Assembly: GCA_024207135.1 (NCBI GenBank)
Contig: CP042428.1
Coordinates: forward strand, 4,402,001-4,466,000
DNA: 64,000 nucleotides
Source of the DNA: Arthrobacter sp. C2
GTDB lineage: Bacteria; Actinomycetota; Actinomycetes; Actinomycetales; Micrococcaceae
Direction of reading: 5' to 3'
The notes beneath the pieces are model-generated. The model was given only the letters and a program-made list of their open reading frames with translations, ran no database searches and was not told the DNA's origin. This document shows positions 1,043-34,634 of the stretch, one piece after another (within the stretch, counting starts at the first letter, position 1; each line of letters starts with the position of its first letter). The position numbers and the translations under genes were made by a program.

Positions 1043-1094
1043 GAATCGCATCGTGCCGGGAGGGAACCGGCCACGATGGCCTTGGCAAGGATGG

Positions 1095-2084: not shown

Positions 2085-2198
2085 ATGGCCACTGTACGCC
2101 GGGCCGTCGAGACGGGAGCCTTGATAGCTGCAGGATCCTTTTCATACTGGTCATTTTTGCCGCTCCCGCCAGCTGCCCAGGCTGGGGAGACTTGAATC

Positions 2199-8365: not shown

Positions 8366-8569
8366 CCGGGGTGCCAAGGATGGTCTGCAGGCCGCACAGG
8401 GGACGCATTCCTGTGTCCTGCGCCGCAGGGGATCACATCGGGGGAGTTGCGCTGCCTGTCGGTGTGGCCTTCGATGGCGGATTTCCCTGCCTGTAGGGAT
8501 CTAGATGCTTCCCACCTGCGGCGTCCGTAGGACGACAGGTGCTTGGTCCCGTCGGCAACTGTTCTTTCC

Positions 8570-20155: not shown

Positions 20156-20553
20156 CGTTGGCACGGCGGCGTATTGGTAGGTTTCAACTCGATGAAAGTT
20201 GCCGTGACGGAGCCCGGTTGGAAGAGGGCGGACCTCGACCCTGCGAGAAAATGTCATGGCGAGTCTGCATTCTCAGCCACCCTGTTTGTTGCCTGTGAAT
20301 TCATGCATGACGTCGCATGATTGGCACACTATTCGGGATGTGAGCGAAGGATATATATTGGCTCGGCCATTTTGAGTAACCGTCGTGGTTTTGACGCACA
20401 TCATCACGCCGCTACCCGCTTTGGAATCTCGACGTGAACCGGGGGATACGTCATTTGACCCATGACACAAGGCAATGTGCCCGGCAGACTGTATCTTCAC
20501 GCAACTACCATGGCATTCCCATTCCCAGCGGGATGCCACACGAGTGAGGATAC
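20156..20553. other. Upstream region of the deacetylase/C45 operon
   Basis: No gene is seen. It contains the operator-like site 20444..20463 and, just before 20554, the leader of the deacetylase gene. The left border is the breakpoint of the truncated DJ-1 copy. Confidence 0.5.
20444..20463. promoter_or_regulatory. Putative operator, site A
   Basis: GATACGTCATTTGACCCATG is an imperfect palindrome of the form NATACGTCA-N2-TGACNCATG, 91 bases before the deacetylase start. It matches the sites at 29507, 29577 and 33195, all next to the regulators and transport operons of this region. Confidence 0.55.
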
Positions 20554-21477
20554 ATGATGGTTTTGTGGCCGCAGGACAAGGATTTCGGCGCAAGCATTAC
20601 CTTTGATTTTGACGCCGAAGAGGTTTGGATCGGAGAGAACCCCGCGAATGCCAACCGTCCCGGAGTGCTTTCGCAGGGAGCCTATGGTCCGCGTGTGGGA
20701 GTGCCGTTGATCCTGGATCTGTTGGCTAAGCACGACGTGAAGGCAACCTTTTTCATTTGCGGCAAGGATGCCCTGCGCCATCCCGAGTCCGTTAGGGCGA
20801 TCTTGGCCAGGGGCCACGAAGTCGCTCACCACGGGCACTCACACACGAACCCCACTAAGCTCAGTCCCGCGGCAGAGCGCGCGGAATTGTACGACGGGCT
20901 GGCCGTGTTGCGGGACTTAGGTGCCGAGGTGACGGGATATCGGTCCCCCTCATGGGATTTCACGGACCAGACCCTTGATCTGCTTCAGGAAGCGAACTTC
21001 ACATACAGTTCCAACATGCTCAACGACATCCGCCCTTACCGCTACGAGAGCCACGATATCGTAGAGGTCCCCGTGTCGTGGATACTGGACGATGCCCCGC
21101 ATTTTTGGTTCGCCAATGACACCTGGGAAAAGACCATTCGCTCCACCCGCGAGGTACTCGAGGTGTGGCAGCCAGAGATTGAGGGCATTGCGGCACTGGG
21201 CGGACACGTCATGCTGACTTTCCACCCGATGATTTCCGGGCGCCCCTCGCGCCTGGCCATGCTCGAAAAGATCATCGTGGGACTAAAGGGGGCCGGCGCG
21301 TGGATTGGCACGGTACGGCAGACCGCCGAGCTGCTGGATGAAGACTCTCCGACCGGGACACTGTCCGCGGCCGAGGCCCCGACTTCGTTGCCCGCCCATT
21401 TGCTCCAGGCACCGGTGGACGAACCACATTTGGGCATCGCGGAGGTCGCTCTGGCAGGACGGAGCGGCCAGGCATGA
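20554..21477 (+). CDS. Polysaccharide deacetylase family (NodB-fold) amidohydrolase
   Basis: The 307-residue product has the NodB-homology motifs: SITFDFDAEE (catalytic and metal-binding Asp), EVAHHGHSHTNP (metal-binding His pair), TGYRSPSWDF, and the late GGHVMLTFHP. It has no signal peptide, so it is probably cytoplasmic and acts on a small N-acyl or cyclic amide, as PuuE-type allantoinases and imidases of this fold do, rather than on cell wall. The ATG at 20554 may alternate with the next codon (MM). Its stop overlaps the next gene's start (ATGA), so the two proteins are made together. Confidence 0.85.
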   Translation: MMVLWPQDKDFGASITFDFDAEEVWIGENPANANRPGVLSQGAYGPRVGVPLILDLLAKHDVKATFFICGKDALRHPESVRAILARGHEVAHHGHSHTNPTKLSPAAERAELYDGLAVLRDLGAEVTGYRSPSWDFTDQTLDLLQEANFTYSSNMLNDIRPYRYESHDIVEVPVSWILDDAPHFWFANDTWEKTIRSTREVLEVWQPEIEGIAALGGHVMLTFHPMISGRPSRLAMLEKIIVGLKGAGAWIGTVRQTAELLDEDSPTGTLSAAEAPTSLPAHLLQAPVDEPHLGIAEVALAGRSGQA

Positions 21478-22631
21478 AAACTGCAGGCTACCCGCGTATC
21501 CGGGTCAGTGGCGGCCCGTTTGAGCGCGGCGAGCAATACGGTTCCCTGGCCCGCCCGCAGGTGCACCATGCCCGCAACGGCTACGAGCGCTCCTTCGCCA
21601 GCAAGGGCGTGCCCTGGGCAGAAGCCGTCATCCATGCCCAGGGGTACGCTGAATCCATCCAGCGTTTCTTTCCGGATATCTGGGAAGAAATGCGCGGAAT
21701 CGCCATGGGCGCGAACCTGCCGTTCGAAGACATACTGGCGATGAATTGCCGCACCGAGATCCTCTGGCGAGCATTGGTCTCCTCGCACCAGATGGCGACG
21801 GGTCGGGCCGCCTCGTTGCGCGGCGTCGGGGAGTGCTCCTCCTTTGCGATCGCCCCGACGCACACGGCACTGGGCCACACTCTGATGGGCCAGAACTGGG
21901 ATTGGCTTGTGCATGGGTTCGATTCGGTTATCCTTCTGGAGGTTGAACGCGAGGATGGACCGAACTACGTCACCATCGTGGAAGCCGGGTTGCTGGCCAA
22001 GACGGTGATGAACGAGCACGGCATCGGCCTGGCAGTAAACACGCTTGTGACGAGCACTGACGGATCAACACCGGGTGTCCCGTTCCACGTGTTGCTGCGG
22101 GCGCTTGCAGATTGCGAACGAGTCTTTGATGCGGTGGAATTGCTGGCCTCCCATCCTAGGGCTTCCTCCGGAAACTACGTGCTGGGAGCCGCGGACGGGG
22201 CAATTCTGAATATTGAGACGGGGCCGGGGGACGCACGTAACATCAACATCCAGATTGCCAAACATGGCAAGACCTTCCACACCAACCACTTTTTGTATTC
22301 AGTGCAGGGCGGTTTCGACCTGGCTCCCGTGGCCATGTCGGATTCCTATGTGCGCCTGTCCCGGTTGCGCGAGTTGGTCGGCATCAAGGCACAGGCTGTC
22401 ACCGTCGCTGCCCTGGACCAGGCCCTGCGCGATCACACGGACGCCCCGGGTTCGATTTGCTGCCATCCCGATGGCCGATCGGATCCTGCGGCGCAGTGGT
22501 CGACGGTCATGTCTGTCGTCATGGATCTGGAAAACCGGGTGCTGCATCTGGCAGAAGGCAACCCCTGCCTGGCGCCTAGAAATGCTGTCGATTATGCCGA
22601 GTTTTTACAGCCAAACCTTGTGAAGGCATAA
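21474..22631 (+). CDS. C45 family peptidase / acyl-CoA:6-APA acyltransferase-like Ntn hydrolase
   Basis: The 385-residue product matches the C45 (penicillin acyltransferase-like) Ntn-hydrolase family. The expected nucleophile is the cysteine in GVGECSSFAIAPT, followed by GHTLMGQNWDW and later HTNHFLYS and SIICCHPDG-like segments (GSICCHPDG). Family members cut or transfer acyl groups on amides. In an active enzyme the chain would self-cleave just before that Cys. It is coupled by ATGA to the deacetylase-fold gene, suggesting consecutive steps on one substrate. Confidence 0.85.
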   Translation: MKTAGYPRIRVSGGPFERGEQYGSLARPQVHHARNGYERSFASKGVPWAEAVIHAQGYAESIQRFFPDIWEEMRGIAMGANLPFEDILAMNCRTEILWRALVSSHQMATGRAASLRGVGECSSFAIAPTHTALGHTLMGQNWDWLVHGFDSVILLEVEREDGPNYVTIVEAGLLAKTVMNEHGIGLAVNTLVTSTDGSTPGVPFHVLLRALADCERVFDAVELLASHPRASSGNYVLGAADGAILNIETGPGDARNINIQIAKHGKTFHTNHFLYSVQGGFDLAPVAMSDSYVRLSRLRELVGIKAQAVTVAALDQALRDHTDAPGSICCHPDGRSDPAAQWSTVMSVVMDLENRVLHLAEGNPCLAPRNAVDYAEFLQPNLVKA

Positions 22632-22914: not shown

Positions 22915-24654
22915 CTAGCGGTCAACGGCACCGTGCATTCCCGGAAACTGCAACCGGCTCATGGAACCAAACGGCGCTGGGCTGAGCACCACCGGTCCAT
23001 CCGGTTGGATTTGGCAGGTCAAAAGCGGCATCCCGATCGTAGGGTCGATGGTCCCGTCTGGGTAGCTGAGTGGCGACTGGCCGTCCTCTCCCAGATAGTA
23101 GGTTCCGTTGAGCCCGCGATAGAGGATCTCGCGCAGGGCCGCGCTCACTCCAGCACTATCGGTCCCTCCATTTTGGCGCCACGCGGTGGCCAATAGCTGG
23201 ACTTGGTCGTAGGCCGAGCTGGATTGCGCGGGCCCGGGTTCGACCCCGTAGCGGACCGCGTAGTTGCGCTGGAACGTGCGTGCGATGGCGGAATCGGTTC
23301 GGTTGGTCACCGAGCTCCACACCACACCGTTGGCAAGGTCCCCCAGCTGCTCCACAAACCGGGGGCTCGAGGCGGCATAGACATAGTGGACCAGTCCGGT
23401 GAAATTCGCTGCATGCAGCTGCCGCTGCAATTCCGCGATCTCGTCGGTGATGAAATGCGCCACGAGGATGACCTCGGCGCGGGACTCCACCAAACGCCGG
23501 GCCACTTCTTCCCAATCCGACTGCCGGAAGGGTGCGCTTTCGCGGCTGACAATGCTCCAGCCCACTGAAGCGACAGCGGGCTCGAAGCCGTTTCCACCGA
23601 TGTGTGCACTCGGCGTATCCATCTCTACCAGCGCCATCCGGCGTTCCTTGGGGTGATAGTTCCGCAATGTCCCGAGATCGCGCAGGAACCGCACAAACGC
23701 CATCGCGTAGTACTTTTCCGACGGGCATGTCTGGAACACCATTCCGTAACGTCGGGGATTGCTCCGGACCAGGTCCACGTGGCGCTCGAAAGTGTCAACG
23801 TGGAGAAAAGGCCTGCCGTAGTTGGCGGCCATCTCCAGCAGGAAGGGATTTTCGGCGCTCGAGTAGTGCGTGGTAATGGCATCGACTCCGGCATCGATGA
23901 GCCGCTGCATGGCGGCCCGGACAGCGTCGGGGTCATACAGGTCCGCGTCGGCAACAAGGTGTTCAAGGGAACGGCCTGCCACTCCTCCGTTGGCATTGAT
24001 CTCCTCGACGGCCAGCGCCGCTCCTCGAACCAGCTCCTCGCCCTCGTCGTTGGCCTGGCCGGTCAGGGACGCGAGCGTTCCGATCAAGATCGGTCGCGGA
24101 CCGTCGACCGTCTTTGAACCTGAAGGTATTCGCTGGGTCACGTCATCGACCATGCCGGCGAATCGTTCGACGCTCACGACGGAGATGTGCGCCACCCCGT
24201 CGATGCCTCCCGGCACCGGCAACGCAAGCAGGTGGCTGTCCACGACGAGCGAGGCCAGCCCTGCCCTGCTCACCTGGCCGAGCTTGTGCAGCAGCCGTTC
24301 CACCTGGGTGGACACGGTCCGACGGCTGGTTCCGAGCCGGTCCCCGATCTCCGGGTTGGACAGCCCGAGCGACAACAACGTCAGGACTTCGATTTCGCGC
24401 CGGGTGATGCCCTGTGGCAGTTCGGCCGGAACGGCGCGGATCAGCGCCCGTTCGTACTGCTCACCGCGCCGGCGGGTCCGTTCAACCACAACCGACAGCC
24501 ACGGTTCGGCGGCACGGTACAGGAACTGAACACGGTGGCGGTTCAGGAGGAGGAACCCGCGGGCGTAAGCCACCAGGTCTGGCGGCGGCGGACCACCGTG
24601 GACGGATTCGATCCGTCCACGGTGGTCGGTGAGGAACTCGAGTATTTGGGTCAT
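22915..24654 (-). CDS. LuxR-HTH fused to AmiC-like substrate-binding domain, regulator 1
   Basis: The 579-residue product has three parts. Residues 1-75 form a small domain of unknown type (LTDHRGRIESVHG, YARGFLLLNRHRVQFLYRA). Residues 81-140 are a LuxR-type HTH (ITRREIEVLTLLSLGLSNPE, IGDRLGTSRRTVSTQVERLL). Residues 188-579 are a type-1 periplasmic-binding fold of the UrtA/FmdD/AmiC kind (LIGTLASLTGQANDEGEELV, LAVEEINANGGVAG, TCPSEKYYAMAFVRFL, LNGTYYLGEDGQSPLSYPDG). There is no signal peptide, so the binding domain should sense a ligand in the cytoplasm. It is the last gene of the five-gene transporter operon (ATGA overlap with the deacetylase-like gene). A 592-residue paralog lies at 31387..33165. 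Confidence 0.85.
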   Translation of the reverse strand: MTQILEFLTDHRGRIESVHGGPPPPDLVAYARGFLLLNRHRVQFLYRAAEPWLSVVVERTRRRGEQYERALIRAVPAELPQGITRREIEVLTLLSLGLSNPEIGDRLGTSRRTVSTQVERLLHKLGQVSRAGLASLVVDSHLLALPVPGGIDGVAHISVVSVERFAGMVDDVTQRIPSGSKTVDGPRPILIGTLASLTGQANDEGEELVRGAALAVEEINANGGVAGRSLEHLVADADLYDPDAVRAAMQRLIDAGVDAITTHYSSAENPFLLEMAANYGRPFLHVDTFERHVDLVRSNPRRYGMVFQTCPSEKYYAMAFVRFLRDLGTLRNYHPKERRMALVEMDTPSAHIGGNGFEPAVASVGWSIVSRESAPFRQSDWEEVARRLVESRAEVILVAHFITDEIAELQRQLHAANFTGLVHYVYAASSPRFVEQLGDLANGVVWSSVTNRTDSAIARTFQRNYAVRYGVEPGPAQSSSAYDQVQLLATAWRQNGGTDSAGVSAALREILYRGLNGTYYLGEDGQSPLSYPDGTIDPTIGMPLLTCQIQPDGPVVLSPAPFGSMSRLQFPGMHGAVDR

Positions 24655-25760
24655 CGGCGGTGGTCTGGCACGTTTTTCACGAGCTCACCGGCCATGTCGA
24701 CGGCTTCCTTCTGCCAAGGTTCCAACTGAAGCTGCGGATAGTCGGCAAAGAATGCCATGTAGGGGTCTTCGACCCCCGATTCCAAGCCCGTCAATTCCTC
24801 AAGGACCGCCATGCCACAGAACGGGACATAGTGCGCCGAGTAGCCTCCCTCGTGGATGAACGCTATGCGACCGGCACAAAGTTCGGAAGCAGCGTCGATC
24901 ATCCGCCGGGACATGGCCCTGAACCCGTCACTGGTGACCACCATGCGGCCAAGCGGATCCGTGGCCGAGGCGTCGAAGCCGCTGCCGACGATGATGAGTT
25001 CGGGCTGGAAACGTTCCAAAGCCGGACCCACGACGCGCTCCAGGGCATCGAGGTAACCGCCGTCTCCCGTTCCCGCCGGCAGCGGGATGTTGATGGCGGT
25101 TCCCTCGGCGTCCGCACCGCCGTTCTCGCCGTGCATTCCGGAGTCCGTCGGGTAGAGCCTGTCTTGGTGCAGGGAAATCGTGAGGACGGCCGGGTCGTTC
25201 CAAAACACACTCTGTGTCCCGTTTCCGTGGTGCACGTCCCAGTCGACGATCGCGACCCGCGTGAGCCCGAATTCGTCCAGGGCGACCCGCGCGGCGATCG
25301 AGGTGTTGGCAAAGAGGCAGAAACCGCGGCCGCGGTCGGCTTCCGCATGGTGCCCGGCGGGGCGCACCAACGCGTAGGCGTTGTCCACCTCGCCGCGCAG
25401 CACGGCCCGAACCGCGCCTACGGCGGCACCTGCCGATAGCTTCGCGATCGACAGGCCCTGCGGGCCGAATTCCGCGCTCTCCCCGGCGTCTCCGCCGGTC
25501 TCGTTCATGTCCTCGAGACGTTGCAGGTACCCGGGGGTGTGCACCGCCAGGATCTCCTTGTCCGTCGCAGGGGCCGCATCCAACGCGACCATTTTCTTGT
25601 CGAACGCGCTGACCTGCACCAACGCCGCAAAGCGTCCCTTGGAGTCGGGCGAGTCGAAGGCCGTGTGGGGCTGGATGAAGCCCCCGGGCCGGAAGAAACC
25701 CGATCCATTGCCGGTGTTGTGCCAGTTGAAGGCCTCGTGCCAGATCCATCCGGTGCTCAT
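24651..25760 (-). CDS. Class II histone-deacetylase-like amidohydrolase
   Basis: The 369-residue product has the arginase/deacetylase fold. Its signatures are VRPAGHHAEADRGRGFCLFA, the zinc-binding VDWDVHHGNGTQSVFW, LHQDRLYPTDSG, and the late IHEGGYSAHYVPFCG. Bacterial members include acetylpolyamine and N-acetyl-amine amidohydrolases, removing an acyl group from an amine. The start at 25760 (MSTGWIWHE) follows GAAGGGCACGCAATC; the longer frame to 25919 has no similarity. It lies between the ABC permease gene and regulator 1 in one operon, so its substrate is probably what the transporter imports. Confidence 0.88.
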   Translation of the reverse strand: MSTGWIWHEAFNWHNTGNGSGFFRPGGFIQPHTAFDSPDSKGRFAALVQVSAFDKKMVALDAAPATDKEILAVHTPGYLQRLEDMNETGGDAGESAEFGPQGLSIAKLSAGAAVGAVRAVLRGEVDNAYALVRPAGHHAEADRGRGFCLFANTSIAARVALDEFGLTRVAIVDWDVHHGNGTQSVFWNDPAVLTISLHQDRLYPTDSGMHGENGGADAEGTAINIPLPAGTGDGGYLDALERVVGPALERFQPELIIVGSGFDASATDPLGRMVVTSDGFRAMSRRMIDAASELCAGRIAFIHEGGYSAHYVPFCGMAVLEELTGLESGVEDPYMAFFADYPQLQLEPWQKEAVDMAGELVKNVPDHRR

Positions 25761-25830
25761 GATTGCGTGCCCTTCTTTGCGTGAATTCTTGTGTTTCGGG
25801 GCTATGCGGCCCTCGAGGTATTTGAGACGG

Positions 25831-26907
25831 CTAGTGTTTGCCGGCACCCAGACGTTGGGGCTCCCCGGCCAGGGGCGTGCTGGGATCCCCGGGATCACCA
25901 CCTGCCTCGATGCTTGCATCGAGGACCGCCTTGCCGCGGGTTGCCCAGGATTGCTTGACGATCTTTTGGATCGATTCGTCGAGCGCCACGGCCACCACCA
26001 AGGTCAGGCCCACGATGATCGTCTGGAGGAACGGGGAGGCCTGCAGGAAGACCAAGCCGTTGCGCATGACGCCGAAGAAGAGCAGGCCGGCCAAGACACC
26101 GCCGACGCGGCCGACGCCGCCGGCAAACGCCACGCCGCCAAGCAGGGCAACCGTCAGGGCATTCATTTCCAGGTTCAAGCCCACGGCGGGGCTCACCGAC
26201 TGGACCTTGGCGCCCAGCATGATTCCCGCCAGGGCGGAGGCGAGGCCTGTGGCCGCGAACAACCCGAACCGGACGCGGCGCACGTTGACGCCCATCAGAC
26301 GCGCGGCGCGTTCGCTGCCTCCGATGGCGTATGTCTCGCGACCCACCCGGTGCCTGTTCAGCACGTACCAAACGGCGGCAACAACCAGTATCAGCAGCAG
26401 CATCCGGACCGGGAAGGGACCAACGGTGGCGGTGCCGAAGCCTTGGAATGTCTCGGGCAATTCCCGTCTGGTCACGGTGCGTCCGCCCGTCACCATCATC
26501 GCGTAACCACCCCAGACGCTCAGGAAGCCCAAGGTCACCACGATGGGATTCAAGCCGAGATAGGCGACGAGGAAACCGTTAAGGGCGCCGGCCGCAATTC
26601 CAAAGGCCAGACCCACTGCGATGCCCAAGACCGTCGATCCGGTGGCGCTCATGACAAGCGCCGAGTTAACCGCGGCGGCCGAGGCGATGGACCCGACCGA
26701 CAGGTCGACCGAACCGGAAATCATCAGCAGTGCCAAGGGAAGCGCCACGATGCCGAGCTCGGCGACCTGCAGCACCACATTCAGTGCATTGCTGGTGCTC
26801 ATGAAGCGCGGGTTGAGGATCGTGAAGAACACGATCAGGAGAACGAGTGCAAAGAAGATCCCGTTCTTGGCCAGAAAGCTCTTGAGATTGACTGAGGGTA
26901 GCTTCAC
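25831..26907 (-). CDS. ABC transporter permease, ribose/RbsC type
   Basis: The 358-residue product has 8-10 hydrophobic segments and the BPD_transp_2 signatures of sugar-type permeases (LALLMISGSVDLSVGSIASA, GLNPIVVTLGFLSVWGGYAM, NALTVALLGGVAFAGGVGRVGG). It would form the homodimeric channel of the importer encoded with the two genes upstream. Its ATG overlaps the stop of the ATPase gene (ATGA). The last 30 residues are polar and cytoplasmic. Despite the ribose-type label, the operon context suggests a non-sugar substrate. Confidence 0.9.
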   Translation of the reverse strand: MKLPSVNLKSFLAKNGIFFALVLLIVFFTILNPRFMSTSNALNVVLQVAELGIVALPLALLMISGSVDLSVGSIASAAAVNSALVMSATGSTVLGIAVGLAFGIAAGALNGFLVAYLGLNPIVVTLGFLSVWGGYAMMVTGGRTVTRRELPETFQGFGTATVGPFPVRMLLLILVVAAVWYVLNRHRVGRETYAIGGSERAARLMGVNVRRVRFGLFAATGLASALAGIMLGAKVQSVSPAVGLNLEMNALTVALLGGVAFAGGVGRVGGVLAGLLFFGVMRNGLVFLQASPFLQTIIVGLTLVVAVALDESIQKIVKQSWATRGKAVLDASIEAGGDPGDPSTPLAGEPQRLGAGKH

Positions 26908-28412
26908 CGGGAGACCCCTTCCATGGGTCGTACTGCATCTGATAACTGGAGCAACGTGGAAACAAGGTCTCCGCTGAATTCGGGGCCGCGCGGGACTTCA
27001 CTGCGTGAGCCTCCGTACATGACGTAGGAACGGTCGCAGAGCTGGGCGATCTCGTCCGATTCCGCGGAAGCGACCAGCACCGCCACACCTTGGGTTGCGA
27101 GCCCGCGCACGGCGGTGGCGATGTCCTGCTTGGCCCCGACGTCGACGCCTTGGGTCGGCTGGGCCAGCAGCAGGACACGCGGTTGGCGCGGAAACATCCA
27201 GCGCGACAGCAGGTGTTTTTGCCGGTTTCCGCCGCTGAACTCGTCAATTGGCGCGTCGGCTCCGGGGCCCAGGATATTGAGCTGTTTCCGGGCTTCCGCG
27301 TAGGTGCCCTTCCCTACCGCAGGACCCACCCACCATCCGCGGCCGGGCAGTTGCCGGAGCCACGGGAGGAACACCGTGTCCAACGCCGAGGCGCCGGATA
27401 CCAGTCCGTCGTTTTCACGGTCCGCGGGCACCAAGTGGATACCCCAGCGCACCGCGGCTTCCGGCGAGGCGATGTCGACGTCCTCGCCATTCCAGCTAAA
27501 GCGCCCATGGCCGTCCAGACCGAAGAGCCCGGCCAGGAAGCTGAATTGTTCGCCCGCCGCCATCCCGAAAAGGCCGACCACTTCGCCGGCGGCGACGCTG
27601 ATCCCGTTTGAATCGAGGCACCCTGCACCCACTTGTACCCGGGCCGGAACGAACTCCTCGTCGGCCATTCCCGGGGCCAGGGCTTGGGCCAGCGTCCGGC
27701 CCGTGAACGAATCTGTGGCCCCGTCTACCACCAGCTGCCCGGACCTGAGCACCAAAATGCGCTCGCATACGTCCAGGATGTCTGGCAGCCGGTGGGAGAC
27801 GTAGATGACCGTCACCCCGCGCTTGGCCAACTGCCTGATCAAGGCATGCAATGATTCGGTTTCGGCACGGCCCAATGCGGCGGTTGGTTCATCGAGCAGC
27901 AGCATTTTCATGTCGCCGGTCAGGAACCCGCGCGCCAAGTCGACGAGCTGGCGCTCACCCAACGAGAGTGCATCGACCATGAGATCCAGGTCGAGGTCGG
28001 ATCCGACCTCGGTCAGGGCACACCGGGCACGCTCGCGTTGTCCGGTGCTGCGCCGAAGACCCTGTCCCAGGAACATGTTGTCCAGGATGCTTAGGTTCGG
28101 GGCCAATGCTGGCTCCTGGTGGATCACCGTGATGCCCAGCTTCGAGGCTTCCTGCGGCGTCAACTTCCCGGGTGCAGGCGCACCGTCGACGATGAACTCC
28201 CCGCTCGATGCGGCATAGACCCCGGAGAGTACGTTGAACAACGTGGACTTGCCGGCACCGTTGTGGCCCAGCAGGCCGACGATTTCACCGGCCGCCACCG
28301 AGAGCGAGACCCCGTCCAGCGCCCGGGTGGCGCCGAATTCCACGGAAAGGTTGTCCAACTGCAGTCGCAAATCGTCTTCACCCGACTCCGGCCGGGACTG
28401 TGTGGCATGCAT
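26904..28412 (-). CDS. ABC transporter ATP-binding protein, RbsA type
   Basis: The 502-residue product carries two ATPase domains. The first has Walker A GLLGHNGAGKSTLF, signature ALSLGERQLVDLARG and Walker B MLLLDEPTAALGRAE. The second (from about residue 250) has lost a normal Walker A (GLFGMAAGEQFSFLAGLFGL) but keeps a signature EFSGGNRQKHLLSRW and LLAQPTQGVDVGA. This asymmetry is common in RbsA-type proteins, where only one site hydrolyses ATP. It is the second gene of the operon, 6 bases after the binding-protein gene. Confidence 0.9.
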   Translation of the reverse strand: MHATQSRPESGEDDLRLQLDNLSVEFGATRALDGVSLSVAAGEIVGLLGHNGAGKSTLFNVLSGVYAASSGEFIVDGAPAPGKLTPQEASKLGITVIHQEPALAPNLSILDNMFLGQGLRRSTGQRERARCALTEVGSDLDLDLMVDALSLGERQLVDLARGFLTGDMKMLLLDEPTAALGRAETESLHALIRQLAKRGVTVIYVSHRLPDILDVCERILVLRSGQLVVDGATDSFTGRTLAQALAPGMADEEFVPARVQVGAGCLDSNGISVAAGEVVGLFGMAAGEQFSFLAGLFGLDGHGRFSWNGEDVDIASPEAAVRWGIHLVPADRENDGLVSGASALDTVFLPWLRQLPGRGWWVGPAVGKGTYAEARKQLNILGPGADAPIDEFSGGNRQKHLLSRWMFPRQPRVLLLAQPTQGVDVGAKQDIATAVRGLATQGVAVLVASAESDEIAQLCDRSYVMYGGSRSEVPRGPEFSGDLVSTLLQLSDAVRPMEGVSR

Positions 28413-28418
28413 CCTGGG

Positions 28419-29411
28419 TCAGCTTCCGCTCTTGCGGTCGCTGTGGAAAGAGGCGGCGTTTTCCGGGGTTACCCGGGTGGAAGAAATCTCGATGTTGCCC
28501 TTCAGAGTTCCCTCGGCCGCGTCGATGAGCAGCTGCGCGTTCTTCTCGGCGAGTTCCTTGGCCGGCAGGATGAACCCGAGGCGCCAGATGCTGTCCTTTT
28601 CCTGGATCAGATCCAGGGATTCGTCCGTGGCATCTAGGGCACCAAGTAGGTAGTCGGGGTCCTTGGGGTCCACGCCGTGGGCCAAGAGAGCCCGGTAGGA
28701 ACCGATCAGTTGATCGGAGCCGGTTGAAAGCCAGACCTTGGTGTTGGGATCCGCCGACAGCTGGTTCTTGGTGTTTTCCAGTCCGTCCTCGATGGTCAGT
28801 GACGGCATGTCCGAGATCTTGACCTTCGCCCCCGCCTTCTTCAGGCCGTCCTTGATGCCGTTGGAACGGTCAATGCCCAGGTCGGTCTCGTAGTAGCTGA
28901 AAAGGCCGACGGGGACTTCGGCGGCACCGTACTTCTTCACGATCCACTTGCCTGCCTCCTCGCCAAGGGTCAGGCCGTCGTTGTAGTTGTCGATGACCAA
29001 TGCGGCCTTGATGCCGTCCCATTGGGTGGCATACCCGACGACGGGAATGTTCGCGGCCGTCGCCTCGGCGGTGACGGGAACCATGGAGTCCGATTGCACG
29101 GGGTAGCCCATGATGGCCTTGATGTCGCCGCGCTGGATCCATGACTGCCAGCTGGAAACCTGGTTCTGGATGTTCCACTGTGGATCGTCACTGACCAGTT
29201 CGTAGCCCGCCGCTGACACGATTGGCTTCATGTATTCGAGTTCATCGACCCAGATCTGGATGTCCAACCCTGCGAAACTCATCGCAACCGCGCCCTTGTC
29301 GGGAGCGCCGGACGAATCCCCTTCGGCCGGGGCGCCGGAGGCGCATCCGGCAAGGACGAGTGCCGCCACGGCACCGAGCGACGCGAGTCGTGCAAACCTA
29401 CGAGATTTCAT
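28419..29411 (-). CDS. ABC transporter substrate-binding lipoprotein
   Basis: The 330-residue product has a lipoprotein signal peptide (MKSRRFARLASLGAVAALVL, then AGCAS with the lipidated Cys at about 23) and a Peripla_BP_4-like sugar-binding-protein fold (AAGYELVSDDPQWN, TAANIPVVGYATQWDG, DYLLGALDATDE). It binds the substrate outside the membrane for the permease and ATPase that follow. The start has a strong ribosome binding site, TTGGAGGAACA. It is the first gene of the minus-strand operon; two operator-like palindromes lie upstream at 29507 and 29577. Confidence 0.9.
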   Translation of the reverse strand: MKSRRFARLASLGAVAALVLAGCASGAPAEGDSSGAPDKGAVAMSFAGLDIQIWVDELEYMKPIVSAAGYELVSDDPQWNIQNQVSSWQSWIQRGDIKAIMGYPVQSDSMVPVTAEATAANIPVVGYATQWDGIKAALVIDNYNDGLTLGEEAGKWIVKKYGAAEVPVGLFSYYETDLGIDRSNGIKDGLKKAGAKVKISDMPSLTIEDGLENTKNQLSADPNTKVWLSTGSDQLIGSYRALLAHGVDPKDPDYLLGALDATDESLDLIQEKDSIWRLGFILPAKELAEKNAQLLIDAAEGTLKGNIEISSTRVTPENAASFHSDRKSGS

Positions 29412-29506
29412 TGTTCCTCCAATGGCTGCGACGGATACCCGGCGGCTTCCCCGGCTGGTGTCCGTGTCTTCTGAGAAGCCATCTCACCAGAGCAGAACAT
29501 ACAGCA

Positions 29507-29526
29507 CATGCGTCATCTGACGTATG
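29507..29526. promoter_or_regulatory. Putative operator, site B
   Basis: CATGCGTCATCTGACGTATG is a nearly perfect 20-bp palindrome (9-bp arms, one mismatch, 2-base centre), 96 bases upstream of the substrate-binding-protein start in the divergent promoter region. It is the cleanest of four similar sites. Confidence 0.65.
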
Positions 29527-29576
29527 AACGATTAAGCCCGGATTTCGAACCCGTTTGGAAATATGGCTTCCCTTCC

Positions 29577-29596
29577 CGTACGTCATTCGACGCATG
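29577..29596. promoter_or_regulatory. Putative operator, site C
   Basis: CGTACGTCATTCGACGCATG has the same layout as site B, 70 bases to its right (about seven helical turns), on the side of the SDR genes. Two sites in one divergent region suit a regulator that contacts both promoters or forms a loop. Confidence 0.6.
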
Positions 29597-29654
29597 CAAC
29601 TTGCCGCAGGGAGTTCAAGGATGGGAACACGCGAATATCGGGAGGTAAAAGCCA

Positions 29655-29738
29655 ATGAGCCATGGGGCCGGGCGCCAAGGCAGCCACAGCATGATCGACC
29701 GCGGCAGGAATGCCACACCGGACCGGGTCCGGGCATGA
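29655..29738 (+). CDS. Possible 27-residue upstream ORF
   Basis: MSHGAGRQGSHSMIDRGRNA ends with a TGA overlapping the ATG of the SDR gene (ATGA at 29735). It is preceded by a strong ribosome binding site, GGGAGGTAAAAGCCA, whereas the SDR start itself has none. It could serve translational coupling. The peptide has no known relatives that I recognise, and the frame may be accidental. Confidence 0.3.
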   Translation: MSHGAGRQGSHSMIDRGRNATPDRVRA

Positions 29739-30514
29739 CCGGGTCCTTCCAGCGGGCCCCGATGCGGACCTTGGTGACCGGCGCGGCGCGCGGCCTCGGC
29801 AGGGACATCGCCCTGAAGCTCGCGGACCAAGGGCATCTGGTCTTGGCATGCGACGCGTCCGCCGCGGTCTCCGAGCTCGGGGGCGAACGCGGCGGCAGGA
29901 TCCGCACGATGCAGCTGGATCTCACGGAGTCCGACGCCGACCGTATGTTGGTTGGCGGTGCCATCGAGCTCCTTGGCGGTCTGGACGCGCTGGTCAACAA
30001 TGCCGGCGTCGGCGGCCCCGGAACCCTTCTGGAGCACACCACCGACGCAGACCTTGAACAGGTGCTTGCGGTCAACCTGCTCTCACCGGCACGGCTGTGC
30101 CGTGCCGCCCTGCCCATCCTGCGCCGCGGCGGGCGCGGCCGCATCGTCAACGTGGGATCGCTGTTCGCGAACCACCCCCAATCGCACGGAGTGGCCTACT
30201 CGATGTCCAAAGGCGCACTCGCCGCCCTCACCCGTAGCCTCGCCGTGGAGGAGGGACCGTACGGGACCACCGTCAACACGGTTTCCCCGGGCTACATGCT
30301 CACCGGCATGCACCGCGAGGAAGCCGCGCTCCAGGCGGCCCTCCGGGGCGTGGGCGTCGCGGAAGAGCTGGAGCGCATCAGCTCCGCCATACCGATGCGT
30401 CGGCACGGGACGGGGGAGGACGTGGCGGCCACCGTGGCATGGTTGCTCAGCGAACCCGCTGGCTACGTCAGCGGGCAGGATATCCCGGTCAACGGCGCCG
30501 CGGCGTTCGGCTAG
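29735..30514 (+). CDS. SDR family oxidoreductase 1
   Basis: The 259-residue product is a classical short-chain dehydrogenase. It has the cofactor motif TLVTGAARGLGRDIALKLA, NNAG in LDALVNNAGVGG, the catalytic Ser in IVNVGSLFA, and the YxxxK of VAYSMSKGALAALTRSL. The C-terminal GYVSGQDIPVNGAAAF is the usual end. The start is uncertain: ATG 29735 overlaps the short upstream frame; ATG 29762 (MRTLVTG) is the alternative. It is transcribed divergently from the ABC operon and followed by a second SDR gene, suggesting oxidation of an alcohol formed from the imported compound. Confidence 0.85.
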   Translation: MTGSFQRAPMRTLVTGAARGLGRDIALKLADQGHLVLACDASAAVSELGGERGGRIRTMQLDLTESDADRMLVGGAIELLGGLDALVNNAGVGGPGTLLEHTTDADLEQVLAVNLLSPARLCRAALPILRRGGRGRIVNVGSLFANHPQSHGVAYSMSKGALAALTRSLAVEEGPYGTTVNTVSPGYMLTGMHREEAALQAALRGVGVAEELERISSAIPMRRHGTGEDVAATVAWLLSEPAGYVSGQDIPVNGAAAFG

Positions 30515-30567
30515 GCCGAGTGGCCAACGCCGACTTTAGTTTCAATCCCAGGAAAGAAAGCAGCACA

Positions 30568-30657
30568 ATGTACAACACGGCATTTCCGAGGCCCGCCGCA
30601 GCACGGCGGCCATACACGAGGGCAACAGCGCGCTCAACCGGGGCCCTCCGTGGCTGA
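30568..30657 (+). CDS. Possible 29-residue upstream ORF
   Basis: MYNTAFPRPAAARRPYTRAT and nine more codons begin after AGGAAAGAAAGCAGCACA and end with a TGA that overlaps the first codons of the second SDR gene (GTG at 30650). As with the first SDR, the short frame carries the good ribosome binding site and the dehydrogenase start does not. It could be a coupling ORF; no homology is known to me. Confidence 0.3.
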   Translation: MYNTAFPRPAAARRPYTRATARSTGALRG

Positions 30658-31390
30658 GTATTTCCCGGTGCTGGCCGTCACCGGTGCCACCTCGGGGATC
30701 GGCGCAGCCACTGCCCGGCTGGCCACGGCCGCCAATTACCGGGTCGCCATGCTGGACCTAGCCGCGCCCGCGGACGAGGCCCTGCTGCGGCATGAAAACA
30801 CCATCTTCGCCAAGTGCGACGTGACCTCCCGCGAGTCGCTGCAGTCGGCGCTGGCCCTGATTGAGGAGACGTGGGGGCAGGGCCCGGATGCGGTGGTCCA
30901 CTGCGCAGGCGTCTACCAAACAAGCGCCACCGAGGACCTGGACCTCGACCTGTTTGCGCGGGTGCAAAACATCAACACGACCGGGACCTTCCTGACCGCC
31001 GGGATCCTGGGCCGGTCTATGCTCGAGCGCGGCGCGGGCAGCATGGTGCTGTTGAGTTCGATCGCCTTCGCCCTGGGAGACGAGGCCGAACCCGGCGCCG
31101 CCTATGCCGCCAGCAAGGGGGCCGTCGTGTCGATGGGCCGGCAGCTTGCCGCGGAGTGGGGCCCGCGCGGGGTCCGCACCAACGTCGTGGCCCCCGGCGT
31201 CATCGACACCCCCATGACCACCATCGTCGACAACGAACGGGCCTACGGGGACCTTCTGGCAACTCACCCGCTGCGCCGGCTCGGTACTGCCGAGGAGGTC
31301 GCACGGGTGTGCCTGTTCCTGGTCGGCCCGGGGTCCAGCTACGTCAACGGCGCGGTCATCCCCGTGGATGGTGGCCAGTGCATCGTCTAG
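30650..31390 (+). CDS. SDR family oxidoreductase 2
   Basis: The 246-residue product has the SDR cofactor motif AVTGATSGIGAATARLA, HCAG in DAVVHCAGVYQT (replacing NNAG), the catalytic Ser in MVLLSSIAFAL, and the YxxxK of AAYAASKGAVVSMGRQL, ending YVNGAVIPVDGGQCIV. It starts at GTG 30650. The stop overlaps the end of the convergent regulator 2 gene by 4 bases. It follows SDR 1 by 135 bases and is probably co-transcribed with it. Confidence 0.87.
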   Translation: MAEYFPVLAVTGATSGIGAATARLATAANYRVAMLDLAAPADEALLRHENTIFAKCDVTSRESLQSALALIEETWGQGPDAVVHCAGVYQTSATEDLDLDLFARVQNINTTGTFLTAGILGRSMLERGAGSMVLLSSIAFALGDEAEPGAAYAASKGAVVSMGRQLAAEWGPRGVRTNVVAPGVIDTPMTTIVDNERAYGDLLATHPLRRLGTAEEVARVCLFLVGPGSSYVNGAVIPVDGGQCIV

Positions 31391-33165
31391 TCGGCATCTA
31401 AGCGGGGCTGTGGCTCCTGGTCCTGGTGGCCGGGCAGCTGGAGCCTGGCCATCGATCCGAAGAGCGGCGGGCTGAGCACCACCGATTTTCCGCCCTGGAT
31501 CTGCGAGGTGACCAGGACCTGGCCGATGGTCGGGTCCGAGGTTCCGTCCGGGTAGCTCAGCGGCGATTGCCCGCCCCCGCCGAAGTAGTAGATCCCGTTG
31601 AGCCCGTGGTACACGTCCTCGCGCAGCACCTTGCAGGTCCCGCGCGGGACCGTGCTGCCGTTGCGTGCCCAGCTCCAGGCCAGCAGCTGGATCTGGTCGT
31701 ACGCCGAGCTCGCCTGGGACGGGCCGGGCTCCGCCCGGTAGCGCATCACGTAGTTGCGGTGGAACCGAGTCGCCGAGTCCGAATCCATGCGGCTGGTCAC
31801 CGAACTCCAGATCGCGCCGTCGGCCAGCGGCCCGAGCACGTCCCGGAAGCGCGGGATCGAAGCCCCGTAGACGTAGTGAACCAGCCCGCGGAACCCGCCC
31901 TCGACCAGCAGCCGGTGCAAGGTGGCGATTTCATCCGGGACGTAGTGGGCCACCAGGACGACGTCCGGGGCCGCCTCGCAAATCCTGCGTGCGATCTTTA
32001 TCCAGTCGGTGCTCCGGACCGGCGCCGCATACCTGGCCAAGACGCCCCAGCCGATAGCGGCGAGTTCTTGATCGAACCCCTCCCCGGCGATCCGGGTGCT
32101 GGCTGAGTCCGTTTCCACGATTGCGATCCGCCGGTTGGCCGGCTCGTAGCGGCGCGACGCCTCGAGTTCTCCCAGGAAGCGCAGGAAGGCAAGGGCGTAG
32201 TATTTTTCCGAAGGGCAGGTTTGGTAAACCATCCAAAAGCGGTCCGGGCGCGCCTCGACCAGATCCACGTGCTGTTGGAATGTGTCCAGATGCAGGAAGG
32301 GGCGGCCGTAGTCGGCCGCCGTCTCCAACAGGAAAGGGTTTTCCGCGCTGATGTAGTTCGTGGTGATCGCATCGACCTGCGCCCCCACCAGCTGGGCCAT
32401 GGCCGCCTCGACGGTTGATGGGTCGAAGAGGTCGGCACCCGCGACGAAGTGTTCCAGGCGGCGGCCGGCCACGCCCCCGTTGGCGTTGATTTCCTCGATG
32501 GCCAGAGCCGCACCGCGCACCATCTCCTCCCCGTCGTCGGCCGCGATGCCCGAAAGTGCGGCCAGCGTGCCGATGACGATGGGATGCCGGCTGGCCAGCG
32601 TGGTTTCCGGGTCGGCGGAGGCGCCCCTGCCAGAACGAAGGGCGGCGGCGAATTGCTCCAGCCCGACCGCCGCGATCGGCGCCACCCCCTCGACACCGCC
32701 GGGTACCGGGAGCGCCAGCAGACTGGCGTCTACCGCGATCGCCGCCAGCCCGCCGCGGCCGCGCTGTTCAAGCTTGTGCAGCAGCCGCTCGATCTGCGTA
32801 GTCACAGTCCGCGGGCTGGTACCCAGCCGGCCGGCGATTTCCGCATTCGGTAGCCCGAGCGCAACGAGCGTCAGCACATCGATTTCCCGCGGGGTGACTC
32901 CCCGGGGCAACATCAGGGGGTTTGCGTTGACCAGGGCATGGTCGTGTTGCTCGCCGCGCGTGCGTTGGCGCTCCATGCGGATCGCGAGCAGGAGTCCCTC
33001 GGCGCGATAGACAAACTGGATCTCCGAGCGGTTGGTGAGCAGGAACCCCCTCGCATACAACGCCAGCAGTGCCGGAGGTTCCAGCCCGCGAAGCAGCGTG
33101 GTGCGGCCGCGGTGATCGGTGGTGAACTCGGCATGGGAAGCACGCGGCAATCGGATTCCAGTCAC
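31387..33165 (-). CDS. LuxR-HTH fused to AmiC-like substrate-binding domain, regulator 2
   Basis: Paralog of the 22915..24654 regulator with the same three parts: an N-terminal module (TTDHRGRTTLLRG, YARGFLLTNRSEIQFVYRA), a LuxR-type HTH (VTPREIDVLTLVALGLPNAE, IAGRLGTSPRTVTTQIERLL), and a C-terminal binding-protein fold (VIGTLAALSGIAADDGEEMV, LAIEEINANGGVAG, TCPSEKYYALAFLRFL, LNGIYYFGGGGQSPLSYPDG). It has no signal peptide. I start it at GTG 33165 (VTGIRLP), which aligns with the start of regulator 1. An ATG at 33213 (MRIYAYED) or 33261 is possible, but 33213 would lie inside the operator-like site. Its 592 residues should form a ligand-gated DNA-binding protein. Confidence 0.83.
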   Translation of the reverse strand: MTGIRLPRASHAEFTTDHRGRTTLLRGLEPPALLALYARGFLLTNRSEIQFVYRAEGLLLAIRMERQRTRGEQHDHALVNANPLMLPRGVTPREIDVLTLVALGLPNAEIAGRLGTSPRTVTTQIERLLHKLEQRGRGGLAAIAVDASLLALPVPGGVEGVAPIAAVGLEQFAAALRSGRGASADPETTLASRHPIVIGTLAALSGIAADDGEEMVRGAALAIEEINANGGVAGRRLEHFVAGADLFDPSTVEAAMAQLVGAQVDAITTNYISAENPFLLETAADYGRPFLHLDTFQQHVDLVEARPDRFWMVYQTCPSEKYYALAFLRFLGELEASRRYEPANRRIAIVETDSASTRIAGEGFDQELAAIGWGVLARYAAPVRSTDWIKIARRICEAAPDVVLVAHYVPDEIATLHRLLVEGGFRGLVHYVYGASIPRFRDVLGPLADGAIWSSVTSRMDSDSATRFHRNYVMRYRAEPGPSQASSAYDQIQLLAWSWARNGSTVPRGTCKVLREDVYHGLNGIYYFGGGGQSPLSYPDGTSDPTIGQVLVTSQIQGGKSVVLSPPLFGSMARLQLPGHQDQEPQPRLDAD

Positions 33166-33194: not shown

Positions 33195-33214
33195 CATACG
33201 CATAAATACGCATG
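33195..33214. promoter_or_regulatory. Putative operator, site D
   Basis: CATACGCATAAATACGCATG resembles sites A-C in its outer arms (CATACG...CGCATG) with the same 20-base length. It lies 30 bases before the regulator 2 GTG and 74 bases before the permease operon start, so it could serve autoregulation and control of the divergent operon. Confidence 0.5.
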
Positions 33215-33287
33215 ACAGATTCCCGCGGCTGCCCCCACACTGGATGAGCCATATGAGTCACATCACAAGTCGCACCTTGGAGTGGAA

Positions 33288-34634
33288 ATGAGCACTGTCT
33301 CTCAAACGACGAAGAGCCCCCGCCTCAAGCGGGTGCTCGGGCTGCCCGCCACCGTCCTGTTCGGCCTGGCCTACATGCTGCCGCTGACGGTCTTCACGAC
33401 CTACGGCATCGTCAACCAAATCACCGAGGGGCACATCGTCACCTCGTACCTGGTGACCCTGGTTGCCATGCTGTTCACCGCCGCCAGCTACGCACGCATG
33501 GTCAAGGCCTTCCCGATGGCGGGATCCGCTTACACGTACACCCGAAAGACCCTGGGCGGGAACGTCGGATTCCTTGGCGGCTGGGCCCTGTTGCTGGACT
33601 ACCTGCTCATGCCGATGATCACGTACCTGGTGATCGGCATCTACATGCAGGCCAGCTTCCCCGCTGTCCCGCAGCCAGTGTGGATCGTGCTGTCGCTGGT
33701 CATCGTGACGGCCCTGAATGTCGCCGGCATCAAGATGGTGTCCAAGGCCAGCAGCGTCCTGCTCGTCTTCCAGACCGTTTTCCTCTTGGTGTTTGCGGCG
33801 ATGGGCATCCGTGCCGCCACGAACAACCCAATGCCCTCCATCGTGGACATGATGATCGGCCAGGGCCCGGGAACCACCGCCATCTTCGCGGGCTCCGCCA
33901 TTCTCTGCCTCTCGTTCCTCGGATTTGACGCGGTGTCCTCGCTGGCCGAAGAGACCATCGACCCCAAGAAAGTCATTCCCAAGGCAATCATCCTGGTCAC
34001 CCTGCTCGGCGGCGTGCTGTTCGTCATCATCTCGGTGATCGCCAACCTCGCGTTCCCCGATTGGAGCGCCTACACCAGCGTTGACTCCGCGGCGCTGGAC
34101 GTCACCCATGCCGCAGGCGGCGCATTCCTCGAAGCGTTCTTCACCGCCGCCTACATCGCCGGATGCTTCGGGGCGGTGCTGGCCTCCCAGACCACCGTCT
34201 CTCGCATCCTCTACTCGATGGGCCGCGACGGCGTCCTGCCGCGCCGGGTCTTCGGGCACTTGCACCCGAAGTTCCGGACCCCTGTCTACTCGACCCTGGC
34301 CGTCGGCGCCATCGGCCTGCTCGCCCTGGTCATCGACCTCACCCTGGCCTCCTCGCTGATCAGCTTTGGAGCGCTCTCCGCCTTCACGCTCGTGAACATC
34401 GCCGTCATCAAGCACTACTACATCGACCAGAAGCGCCGCTCGGGGCTGGACGCGGTCCGGTACCTTGCGGCCCCGGCCATCGGCGTCATCCTTTGCCTCT
34501 GGCTGTGGTCCAGCCTCTCCATGAGCGCCTTCGTTGTCGGGTTCACCTGGCTGGCGATCGGAATGGTGTATCTGGCGGTGCTCACCCGCGGATTCCGCAA
34601 GGCGCCGCCCGAACTCCCCGTCGCCGACGACTAG
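33288..34634 (+). CDS. APC family amino-acid/amine permease
   Basis: The 448-residue product has about 12 hydrophobic segments and APC-superfamily signatures (TVLFGLAYMLPLTVFTTYG, KAFPMAGSAYTYTRKTLGG, LSFLGFDAVSSLAEETIDPK, SRILYSMGRDGVLPRRVFG). It imports an amino acid or amine by ion or substrate exchange. The ATG at 33288 follows TTGGAGTGGAA. It heads an operon with HyuA-, HyuB- and FAD-oxidoreductase-type genes, which suggests the substrate is an amino-acid-like compound or its lactam. It is divergent from regulator 2. It differs in sequence from the damaged permease copies elsewhere in the window. Confidence 0.9.
   Translation: MSTVSQTTKSPRLKRVLGLPATVLFGLAYMLPLTVFTTYGIVNQITEGHIVTSYLVTLVAMLFTAASYARMVKAFPMAGSAYTYTRKTLGGNVGFLGGWALLLDYLLMPMITYLVIGIYMQASFPAVPQPVWIVLSLVIVTALNVAGIKMVSKASSVLLVFQTVFLLVFAAMGIRAATNNPMPSIVDMMIGQGPGTTAIFAGSAILCLSFLGFDAVSSLAEETIDPKKVIPKAIILVTLLGGVLFVIISVIANLAFPDWSAYTSVDSAALDVTHAAGGAFLEAFFTAAYIAGCFGAVLASQTTVSRILYSMGRDGVLPRRVFGHLHPKFRTPVYSTLAVGAIGLLALVIDLTLASSLISFGALSAFTLVNIAVIKHYYIDQKRRSGLDAVRYLAAPAIGVILCLWLWSSLSMSAFVVGFTWLAIGMVYLAVLTRGFRKAPPELPVADD

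Follow-up and report, generated by a model that had tools for sequence, protein, structure and literature searches.

Fused regulators with a LuxR-type core and a transporter-type binding protein in Arthrobacter, candidate switches for amide catabolism

Sensing is a common role of binding proteins of the leucine/amide type. AmiC of the Pseudomonas aeruginosa AmiC/AmiR system is a cytoplasmic type-1 binding protein that controls amide hydrolysis genes, and does so as a separate protein acting on an antiterminator. In regulators of the LacI/GalR group a helix-turn-helix (HTH) and a type-1 binding-protein fold are joined in a single chain. On a plasmid of Aminobacter niigataensis DMFA1 (L036, 7439-11236), three genes lie next to that of dimethylformamidase; they encode a binding protein, a LuxR response regulator and a hybrid histidine kinase. 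DmfR, of Paracoccus aminophilus plasmid pAMI2, is a LuxR protein that controls an amide hydrolase operon, activating the dimethylformamidase genes when dimethylformamide is present (accessible part of PMC4543880, citing Dziewit 2010). In the present work we consider two genes in a stretch of 64,000 nucleotides of Arthrobacter sp. C2 (contig CP042428.1, positions 4,402,001 to 4,466,000; hereafter the window, in whose numbering Arthrobacter positions are given). Their products, P0001 and P0002, place a small N-terminal module, a LuxR-type HTH and a type-1 binding-protein domain in one chain, and we think it probable that they are one-component, amide-responsive switches for amide catabolism.

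How does this arrangement compare with the described systems? The sensor fold that acts as a separate protein in AmiC is here fused to an HTH. The fused regulators would work like LacI/GalR proteins, but these have a LacI HTH and a sugar-type sensor, whereas P0001 and P0002 have a LuxR HTH, an extra N-terminal module and a Peripla_BP_6 sensor of the amino-acid/amide type. The DMFA1 system shares a related sensor (31% identical), a binding protein without an evident signal peptide, a LuxR output and an amide hydrolase; it differs in being three separate proteins with a predicted phosphorelay, and so resembles the same sensing principle divided over a two-component system. Our search of the open-access literature returned no description of a Peripla_BP_6-type protein fused directly to a LuxR DNA-binding domain, and the accessible parts of PMC10308929 and PMC11381386 do not mention such a fusion.

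Architecture of the fused proteins

P0001 and P0002 are 59% identical across 567 residues, gap-free. The original prediction, made from this DNA and its open reading frames (ORFs), had assigned to both an N-terminal module, a LuxR HTH and a complete binding domain, and the ORFs and the Pfam matches agree with it. P0001 matches GerE over residues 83-136 (E 3.1e-11) and Peripla_BP_6 over residues 188-526 (E 1.8e-40), the latter spanning positions 1-328 of the 343 in the profile, a full-length domain; P0002 matches the same two families over residues 91-142 (E 7.6e-11) and 195-503 (E 4.3e-28). All of these matches exceed the curated Pfam cut-offs (for GerE, 43.2 and 41.9 bits against 23.5), and no LacI-type model was among the domain matches of either protein at E 0.01. 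The HTH lies mid-chain, at residues 83-136 of 579 in P0001, and not at the C-terminus as is usual for LuxR/GerE proteins, an oddity that the prediction had rightly remarked upon. Its helices are predicted at residues 85-95, 100-107, 111-124 and 130-140, in the four-helix order that a LuxR assignment calls for, with the fourth being short and badly modelled (130-134, predicted local distance difference test, pLDDT, below 50) in a 180-residue model of P0001. The start of P0002 is uncertain, as the open frame reaches a GTG at 33261, yet relatives align from about 33165. The two are the sole such proteins in the single-contig, 4.56-Mb genome; ten further matches in that genome are confined to residues 38-151, that is, the HTH and a little upstream.

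What kind of sensor has been joined to the HTH? The prediction had likened it to AmiC and UrtA. That a binding-protein fold is fused to the HTH stands, mainly by a sequence match to 3h5l, but the likeness to AmiC/UrtA is not special. The nearest solved homologue of the P0001 sensor is 3h5l itself, a putative branched-chain amino acid ABC transporter protein of Silicibacter pomeroyi (E 1.4e-43 over residues 185-573), whereas AmiC matches weakly (E 2.8e-4 over residues 187-262). When the full-length model was used in a Foldseek search, 3h5l ranked first and AmiC 14th, and the matches include leucine, gamma-aminobutyric acid (GABA)-type and aromatic-acid binding proteins. Unlike the fused proteins, 3h5l is annotated as a transporter component, and the matched chain is without the HTH part. 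The full-length model is poor (mean pLDDT 55.8, built from 5 sequences), so that the claim of a binding-protein fold is based on sequence. Many residues of the sensor half are invariant among 12 aligned sequences. A single phage record matched, in the sensor half alone.

The N-terminal module leads to DmfR. A model of P0001 residues 1-180 (pLDDT 70.9) has the order beta-beta-alpha-beta-beta-beta, followed by the HTH. Among PDB structures it is matched best by the PAS-LuxR proteins VqmA and EL222 (E 3.3e-5 to 1.8e-4), the template-modelling scores being low, 0.30-0.40. When the module of the 16 fused proteins described below was compared by hhalign with DmfR and three DmfR-like proteins, the match had an E of 5.9e-5, a score of 34.2 and a probability of 65%; the controls reached 11.3 when the template was reversed and no more than 13.9 over 30 shuffles of the columns. 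The matched stretch sits immediately before the HTH in both the fused and the DmfR-type proteins, and the HTHs of the fused proteins are 36-47% identical to that of DmfR. From these comparisons we take the module plus HTH to be homologous to the core of DmfR, the dimethylformamide-responsive LuxR activator. The proteins differ otherwise: DmfR, of 344 residues, has a long N-terminal region and its HTH at the end, while the fused proteins have a short N-terminal part, with the HTH starting at residue 82-117 among the 16 as taken. We asked whether DmfR is itself such a fusion and rejected the idea, as it has a GerE match only and no binding-protein domain.

Three further loci, L090 (genome G1007, 7831-8959), L091 and L092, contain DmfR homologues that are 26-29% identical and divergent from transporter genes, among them genes for binding proteins related to the fused sensor. 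Dimethylformamidase genes are present in L090 and, partial at the fetched end, in L092. The palindrome described below is found among these three loci in L090 only, with 2 mismatches.

Distribution and origin of the fusion

The fusion occurs beyond the Actinomycetota, on an Agrobacterium plasmid. At least 16 intact fused proteins are found in at least 14 genomes or plasmids, 15 of the proteins in Actinomycetota and 1 on the Agrobacterium plasmid; as the best three candidates were scored in most genomes, counts of fused proteins are lower bounds. A fused protein is present in at least 5 of the 395 genomes of a family sample, where a sixth match, in G362, is a free binding protein. The corresponding figures, each including the window's own genome, are at least 4 of 396 in a phylum sample, with matches in the sensor half only in G520, G579 and G670, and at least 5 of 360 in a class sample, with matches in G824, G998, G1007 and G1031 that begin at residue 128 or later and are not counted as fused. 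Plasmid-borne fused regulators are those of Agrobacterium tumefaciens (CP115909) and Paenarthrobacter sp. YJN-D.

What evolutionary steps gave rise to the fused proteins? In a tree of sensor domains, one branch parts the 16 fused from 15 free rows with support of 100/98; before four later members were added, the same split had support of 96/95. A split by a single branch fits one fusion event, provided that the tree is rooted among the free proteins. The 15 free rows were chosen from loci at hand and do not include G520, G579, G670 or most plasmid matches. One row, L045_b, was removed since its branch was 6.3 changes per column long and the row does not look homologous. The fused group required two changes while this row was in the tree (a single clade not being rejected, p 0.31) and one after its removal. 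Another origin, in which the regulator is a recent copy of a neighbouring binding-protein gene, was rejected, because the f15 regulators group with the fused domains and not with their neighbours.

Several relatives fall outside these counts. In three Paracoccus pantotrophus records the regulator copies matched in two or three pieces; they look broken and were not counted. One of these lies on plasmid pPAN2 (L035, 12001-13400), over several short hypothetical genes, with genes for a succinate-semialdehyde dehydrogenase, a PucR-type regulator and hydantoinase A/B downstream. In L088 (G1048) a second large ORF near the fused regulator, 954-3038, resembles the fused proteins weakly, at about 23%, and matches a free binding protein at 34% across 187 residues. 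The N-terminal half also has matches on Embleya plasmids; the records inspected, 2 of 154, are by sequence ordinary LuxR proteins of the response-regulator type.

A predicted operator and its distribution

A 20-bp palindrome, CATnCGTCAwwTGACGnATG, was spotted by eye in the intergenic regions of relatives. The window has three matches at up to 3 mismatches against a shuffle mean of 0.08, and none of 100 shuffles reached three; in the whole 4.56-Mb genome these three are the sole matches at up to 2 mismatches, and a fourth, with 3 mismatches, is far away. The 29507-29596 region, which the original prediction had put forward for DNA binding, contains two copies of the predicted palindrome and is a credible candidate operator. 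In ten loci, 20 shuffles of each produced zero sites at 2 mismatches, whereas 15 were observed altogether; L028 and L033 had none.

Sites with up to 2 mismatches are found upstream of the deacetylase-family gene in the window, L009, L010, L027, L029 and L030, at the called start of that gene in L031, and between the regulator and a nitrilase/deacetylase pair in L034. In three f15 genomes the regulator and a binding-protein gene have a perfect site between them, which in L029 and L031 touches the start codon as called for the regulator, and a predicted site is also at the regulator's own upstream region in the Paenarthrobacter plasmid. The paired sites of the divergent promoter are 70 bp apart in the window and in Paeniglutamicibacter quisquiliarum (L009), and 92-93 bp apart in L027 and L010. 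A candidate variant site at 33195-33214, between P0002 and the APC transporter gene, is present in L009 as well, where the whole intergenic region looks conserved; it would fall inside the P0002 ORF if translation starts at 33261.

Does the palindrome track the fused regulator? At up to 1 mismatch it is found in 4 of the 5 fused-regulator genomes of the family sample and 1 of the 390 others, and in 4 of 4 against 0 of 392 in the phylum sample, the window's genome being counted in both; the reversed pattern had no match in either sample. The Fisher values for this co-occurrence (2.5e-8 and 9.9e-10) overstate the evidence, because the motif was discovered in these loci and the genomes are related. 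In seven fused-regulator genomes, 11 sites fall before or between the genes described here, and the palindrome recurs in other families. The site in G488 lies on a separate contig, unseen before the motif search, directly upstream of hydantoinase A/B genes that share 55% and 63% identity with their counterparts in the window. A stray 1-mismatch palindrome is found in G200 (L062, about 8555-8574), a genome without a regulator match; by eye it sits between an ABC binding-protein gene and an acyl-CoA-dehydrogenase-like gene.

The recognition helices of the fused proteins suggest how specificity might be divided among them, though this pattern was noticed after the fact. The two positions concerned touch bases in LuxR-type proteins. 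The helix reads RTVST in P0001, L009a, L010, L027, L028, L029, L030, L031 and L085, and 8 of the 9 genomes with this helix carry a site at up to 1 mismatch, L028 having just a 3-mismatch site. P0002 and its L009 orthologue have RTVTT, and it is P0002 that the variant palindrome adjoins. The Agrobacterium protein has RTVAK, with a similar variant palindrome before its nitrilase/deacetylase/regulator genes. No site is found with L086 and L087 (RTVAT) or L088 (RTVSK). The exception is L034 (RTIGT), which carries an exact core site.

Amide genes, a proposed mechanism and its alternatives

Amide catabolism is supported as the setting of the fused regulators. At least one carbon-nitrogen (C-N) hydrolase gene is near the regulator in all 14 intact fused loci. 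In 11 of the 14 a deacetylase-family gene is found no more than about 12 kb away, accompanied by a C45 gene in 9 of these and by CN_hydrolase in its place in 2; the other three loci have a CN_hydrolase gene (Pfam) near an FmdA_AmdA gene (G927), a CN_hydrolase gene whose product is 96% identical (G837), and a hydantoinase-B-like gene whose product is 33% identical to the window's (G1048). Free relatives of the sensor, among those inspected, are beside dimethylformamidase in Aminobacter DMFA1, an Agrobacterium pAt plasmid and G1007, and others are beside an amidase (Shinella), phenylacetaldoxime dehydratase and an amidase (Aminobacter SS-2016), or a class II histone deacetylase (Roseovarius).

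The computations show the architecture, the homology of each half, and the recurrence and placement of the palindrome; the dimerisation, the pairing of P0001 with its sites, the amide ligand, the gating and the sign of regulation are what we infer. P0001 and P0002 would be cytoplasmic one-component transcription factors in which the DmfR-type core, a small PAS-like module plus a LuxR HTH, binds the 20-bp palindrome as a dimer. The C-terminal, transporter-type binding protein would close on an amide-type compound inside the cell, and in closing would alter the action of the core on DNA. Through its paired sites (29507-29596) P0001 would govern the transporter, histone-deacetylase-like (HDAC-like) and P0001 genes, together with the SDR genes; through the site at 20445-20464 it would govern the deacetylase/C45 genes. 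P0002, with its different recognition helix, may govern the APC permease, hydantoinase and oxidoreductase genes through the variant site at 33195-33214. The outcome would be transcription of genes for amide uptake and hydrolysis; activation rather than repression is assumed, by analogy, because DmfR is an activator. A broader proposition, which we offer more tentatively and would put just short of an even chance, is that the fused proteins form a new class of one-component regulator, made once from a transporter-type amide-binding protein and a DmfR-type LuxR core, present in at least two phyla and partly on plasmids, with members that differ in the amide, lactam or cyclic imide they respond to, and with a DNA specificity that can be read from two residues of the recognition helix.

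Several observations weigh against the proposed mechanism. The figure of 14 in 14 for C-N hydrolase genes is a raw count, without a background rate for random genes; the co-occurrence counts are partly circular, the motif having been first seen by eye in regulator-bearing loci of related genomes; promoter scans gave no sigma-70-like promoter near the predicted sites; and the linker between HTH and sensor is hydrophobic in P0002. Four fused-regulator genomes found after the motif was fixed serve as a held-out set. G1053 has a 1-mismatch site between deacetylase and binding-protein genes, while G837, G927 and G1048 have no site at up to 1 mismatch genome-wide or at up to 4 mismatches in the 20 kb around the gene; these three also have no deacetylase-family gene in the 20 kb taken. 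By this outcome the palindrome is tied more closely to the deacetylase-type amide genes than to the entire fused family. In addition, the one site in G143 has 3 mismatches and falls within the regulator ORF, at its 3' end, and the intact Agrobacterium locus L033 is without a core site at up to 4 mismatches. G824 has an exact site on a 3.8-kb contig, between a deacetylase gene and the gene for a free binding protein that is its sole profile match. In G1007 a 2-mismatch site has on one side the gene for a DmfR-like regulator, which has no binding-protein domain, and on the other a binding-protein gene with transporter and dimethylformamidase genes after it, and the site is thus not confined to the fusion; no site is found in G998 and G1031, which are kin of G1007. 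Might the palindrome, then, be the operator of another regulator of these amide genes, such as a free DmfR-type LuxR protein? The site in G1007, the exact site in G824 (where there is no fused regulator at E 1e-80) and the lack of a site in 3 of the 4 later-found genomes would all be explained. We nevertheless consider it quite unlikely, as the site tracks the fused regulator in the 395- and 396-genome samples, lies at the regulator's own upstream region in the f15 genomes and the Paenarthrobacter plasmid, and goes with the RTVST helix.

Other doubts concern the sensor half. One might think that its ligand is not an amide but, say, an amino acid of the branched-chain or aromatic kind, or else a polyamine, the amide genes being part of a broader catabolic set. 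The fold matches to leucine, GABA-type and aromatic-acid binding proteins are in keeping with this, as is the APC amino-acid-type permease of the locus, and the HDAC-like and deacetylase-family enzymes could act on acyl-polyamines. But free relatives in the sensor clade repeatedly adjoin amide or nitrile genes, and the divergent fusions adjoin the CN_hydrolase (G837, G927), FmdA_AmdA (G927) and hydantoinase-B-like (G1048) genes, so that we regard a non-amide ligand as unlikely, while giving it more weight than the other alternatives. It is also conceivable that the binding domain no longer takes a ligand and serves in oligomerisation or partner docking, with regulation by expression level or by the PAS-like module; in VqmA and EL222, which the module resembles, the PAS modules are the sensors, and AmiC acts through a partner protein. 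The many invariant residues kept in the sensor half, and a module of about 75 residues, shorter than a full PAS domain, make this a rather improbable account. Finally, a sensor family that is normally extracellular raises the question of a ToxR-like protein, anchored in the membrane by its linker with the sensor outside. Hydropathy was calculated as the Kyte-Doolittle mean over 19 residues for all 16 family members, P0001 and P0002 among them; 1.6 is the usual threshold for a membrane span. The best values before the HTH are 0.59 (P0001) and 0.89 (P0002), and so there is no N-terminal hydrophobic stretch; the absence of a signal peptide, as originally predicted, is upheld, the binding domain being internal. 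The most hydrophobic stretch is the linker, with 1.52 in P0001 and 1.74 in P0002. It exceeds 1.6 in 4 of the 16 members, where it has 4-6 prolines or glycines, but is below 1.6 in the other 12, and 3-7 prolines or glycines are present in all 16. The hydrophobicity is thus not conserved; we read the linker as unlikely to span the membrane, and hold the anchored arrangement to be highly improbable.

If the preferred reading of an amide-responsive one-component switch is correct, the family would provide switches responding to amides or lactams, together with a predicted 20-bp operator, and these would be useful as biosensors. The deacetylase-family, C45, HDAC-like and hydantoinase enzymes would then be grouped into one candidate amide-degradation regulon, whose substrates could be sought jointly.

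The features of the window are listed in Table 1. The start of the P0001 gene overlaps the end of the HDAC-like gene by 4 bp (ATGA), and for this reason P0001 is taken as the last gene of a run from 29411 to 22915. A sugar-type transporter is at the corresponding place in the Micrococcaceae genomes G000, G190, G151 and G062. In the three f15 genomes the regulator is instead divergent from a free Peripla_BP_6 gene, after which ABC ATPase genes follow in L030 and L031, a gene order that suggests a branched-chain-type transporter.

Table 1. Regulators, predicted sites and neighbouring genes, with positions in the window
Feature	Position	Strand	Basis
P0001, fused regulator, 579 residues	22915..24654	-	ORF and Pfam
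P0001 N-terminal module, residues about 4-77, beta-beta-alpha-beta-beta-beta, minimal PAS-like, homologous to the DmfR penultimate module	24424..24645	-	model and profile comparison
P0001 LuxR-type HTH (GerE), residues 83-136	24247..24408	-	Pfam; helix prediction
P0001 type-1 binding-protein domain, residues 185-573	22936..24102	-	Pfam, 3h5l match, Foldseek
P0002, second fused regulator, 592 residues, GTG start, ORF open to 33261	31387..33165	-	ORF and Pfam
P0002 LuxR-type HTH, residues 91-142	32740..32895	-	Pfam
P0002 binding-protein domain, residues 195-503	31657..32583	-	Pfam
Predicted operator site 1, CATGCGTCATCTGACGTATG, 1 mismatch, divergent promoter region	29507..29526	.	motif scan
Predicted operator site 2, CGTACGTCATTCGACGCATG, 2 mismatches, 70 bp from site 1	29577..29596	.	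motif scan
Predicted operator site 3, GATACGTCATTTGACCCATG, 2 mismatches, upstream of deacetylase/C45 genes	20445..20464	.	motif scan
Candidate variant operator, CATACGCATAAATACGCATG, outer half-sites kept, centre different, between P0002 and APC transporter	33195..33214	.	motif comparison
Polysaccharide-deacetylase-family hydrolase, commonest neighbour of the fused regulator	20554..21477	+	domain scan and locus comparison
C45 (AAT family) acyltransferase/hydrolase	21474..22631	+	domain scan
Histone-deacetylase-like amidohydrolase; nearest solved HDAH, also propanil and dimethoate hydrolases	24651..25919	-	domain scan and structure-database match
ABC transporter permease	25831..26907	-	domain scan
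ABC transporter ATPase	26904..28412	-	domain scan
Sugar-type (Peripla_BP_4) ABC substrate-binding protein, first gene of the run ending in P0001	28419..29411	-	domain scan
SDR oxidoreductase 1; ORF open from 29555, start unsettled	29687..30514	+	ORF and domain scan
SDR oxidoreductase 2	30650..31390	+	domain scan
APC-family amino-acid/amine permease	33282..34634	+	domain scan
Hydantoinase/oxoprolinase A	34691..36742	+	domain scan
Hydantoinase/oxoprolinase B; caprolactamase beta match below cut-off; N-methylhydantoinase in PDB	36745..38421	+	domain scan
FAD-dependent (DAO family) oxidoreductase	38418..39830	+	domain scan

The hydantoinase pair, the DAO-type oxidoreductase and the APC permease together resemble sets for lactam or N-methylhydantoin degradation. 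The caprolactamase score of hydantoinase B, 231 against a cut-off of 1000 bits, is far too low for that assignment, and we therefore claim no substrate for the set. That the deacetylase-family protein is a cyclic imidase is a suspicion of ours. No ANTAR family, the type of antiterminator with which AmiC works, was found among the window neighbours scanned for domains. Elsewhere in the window, the ORFs at 44049-44552, 60207-60761 and 61754-62935 repeat each other, in segments that are 98% and 85% identical, and may represent a duplicated or mobile gene.

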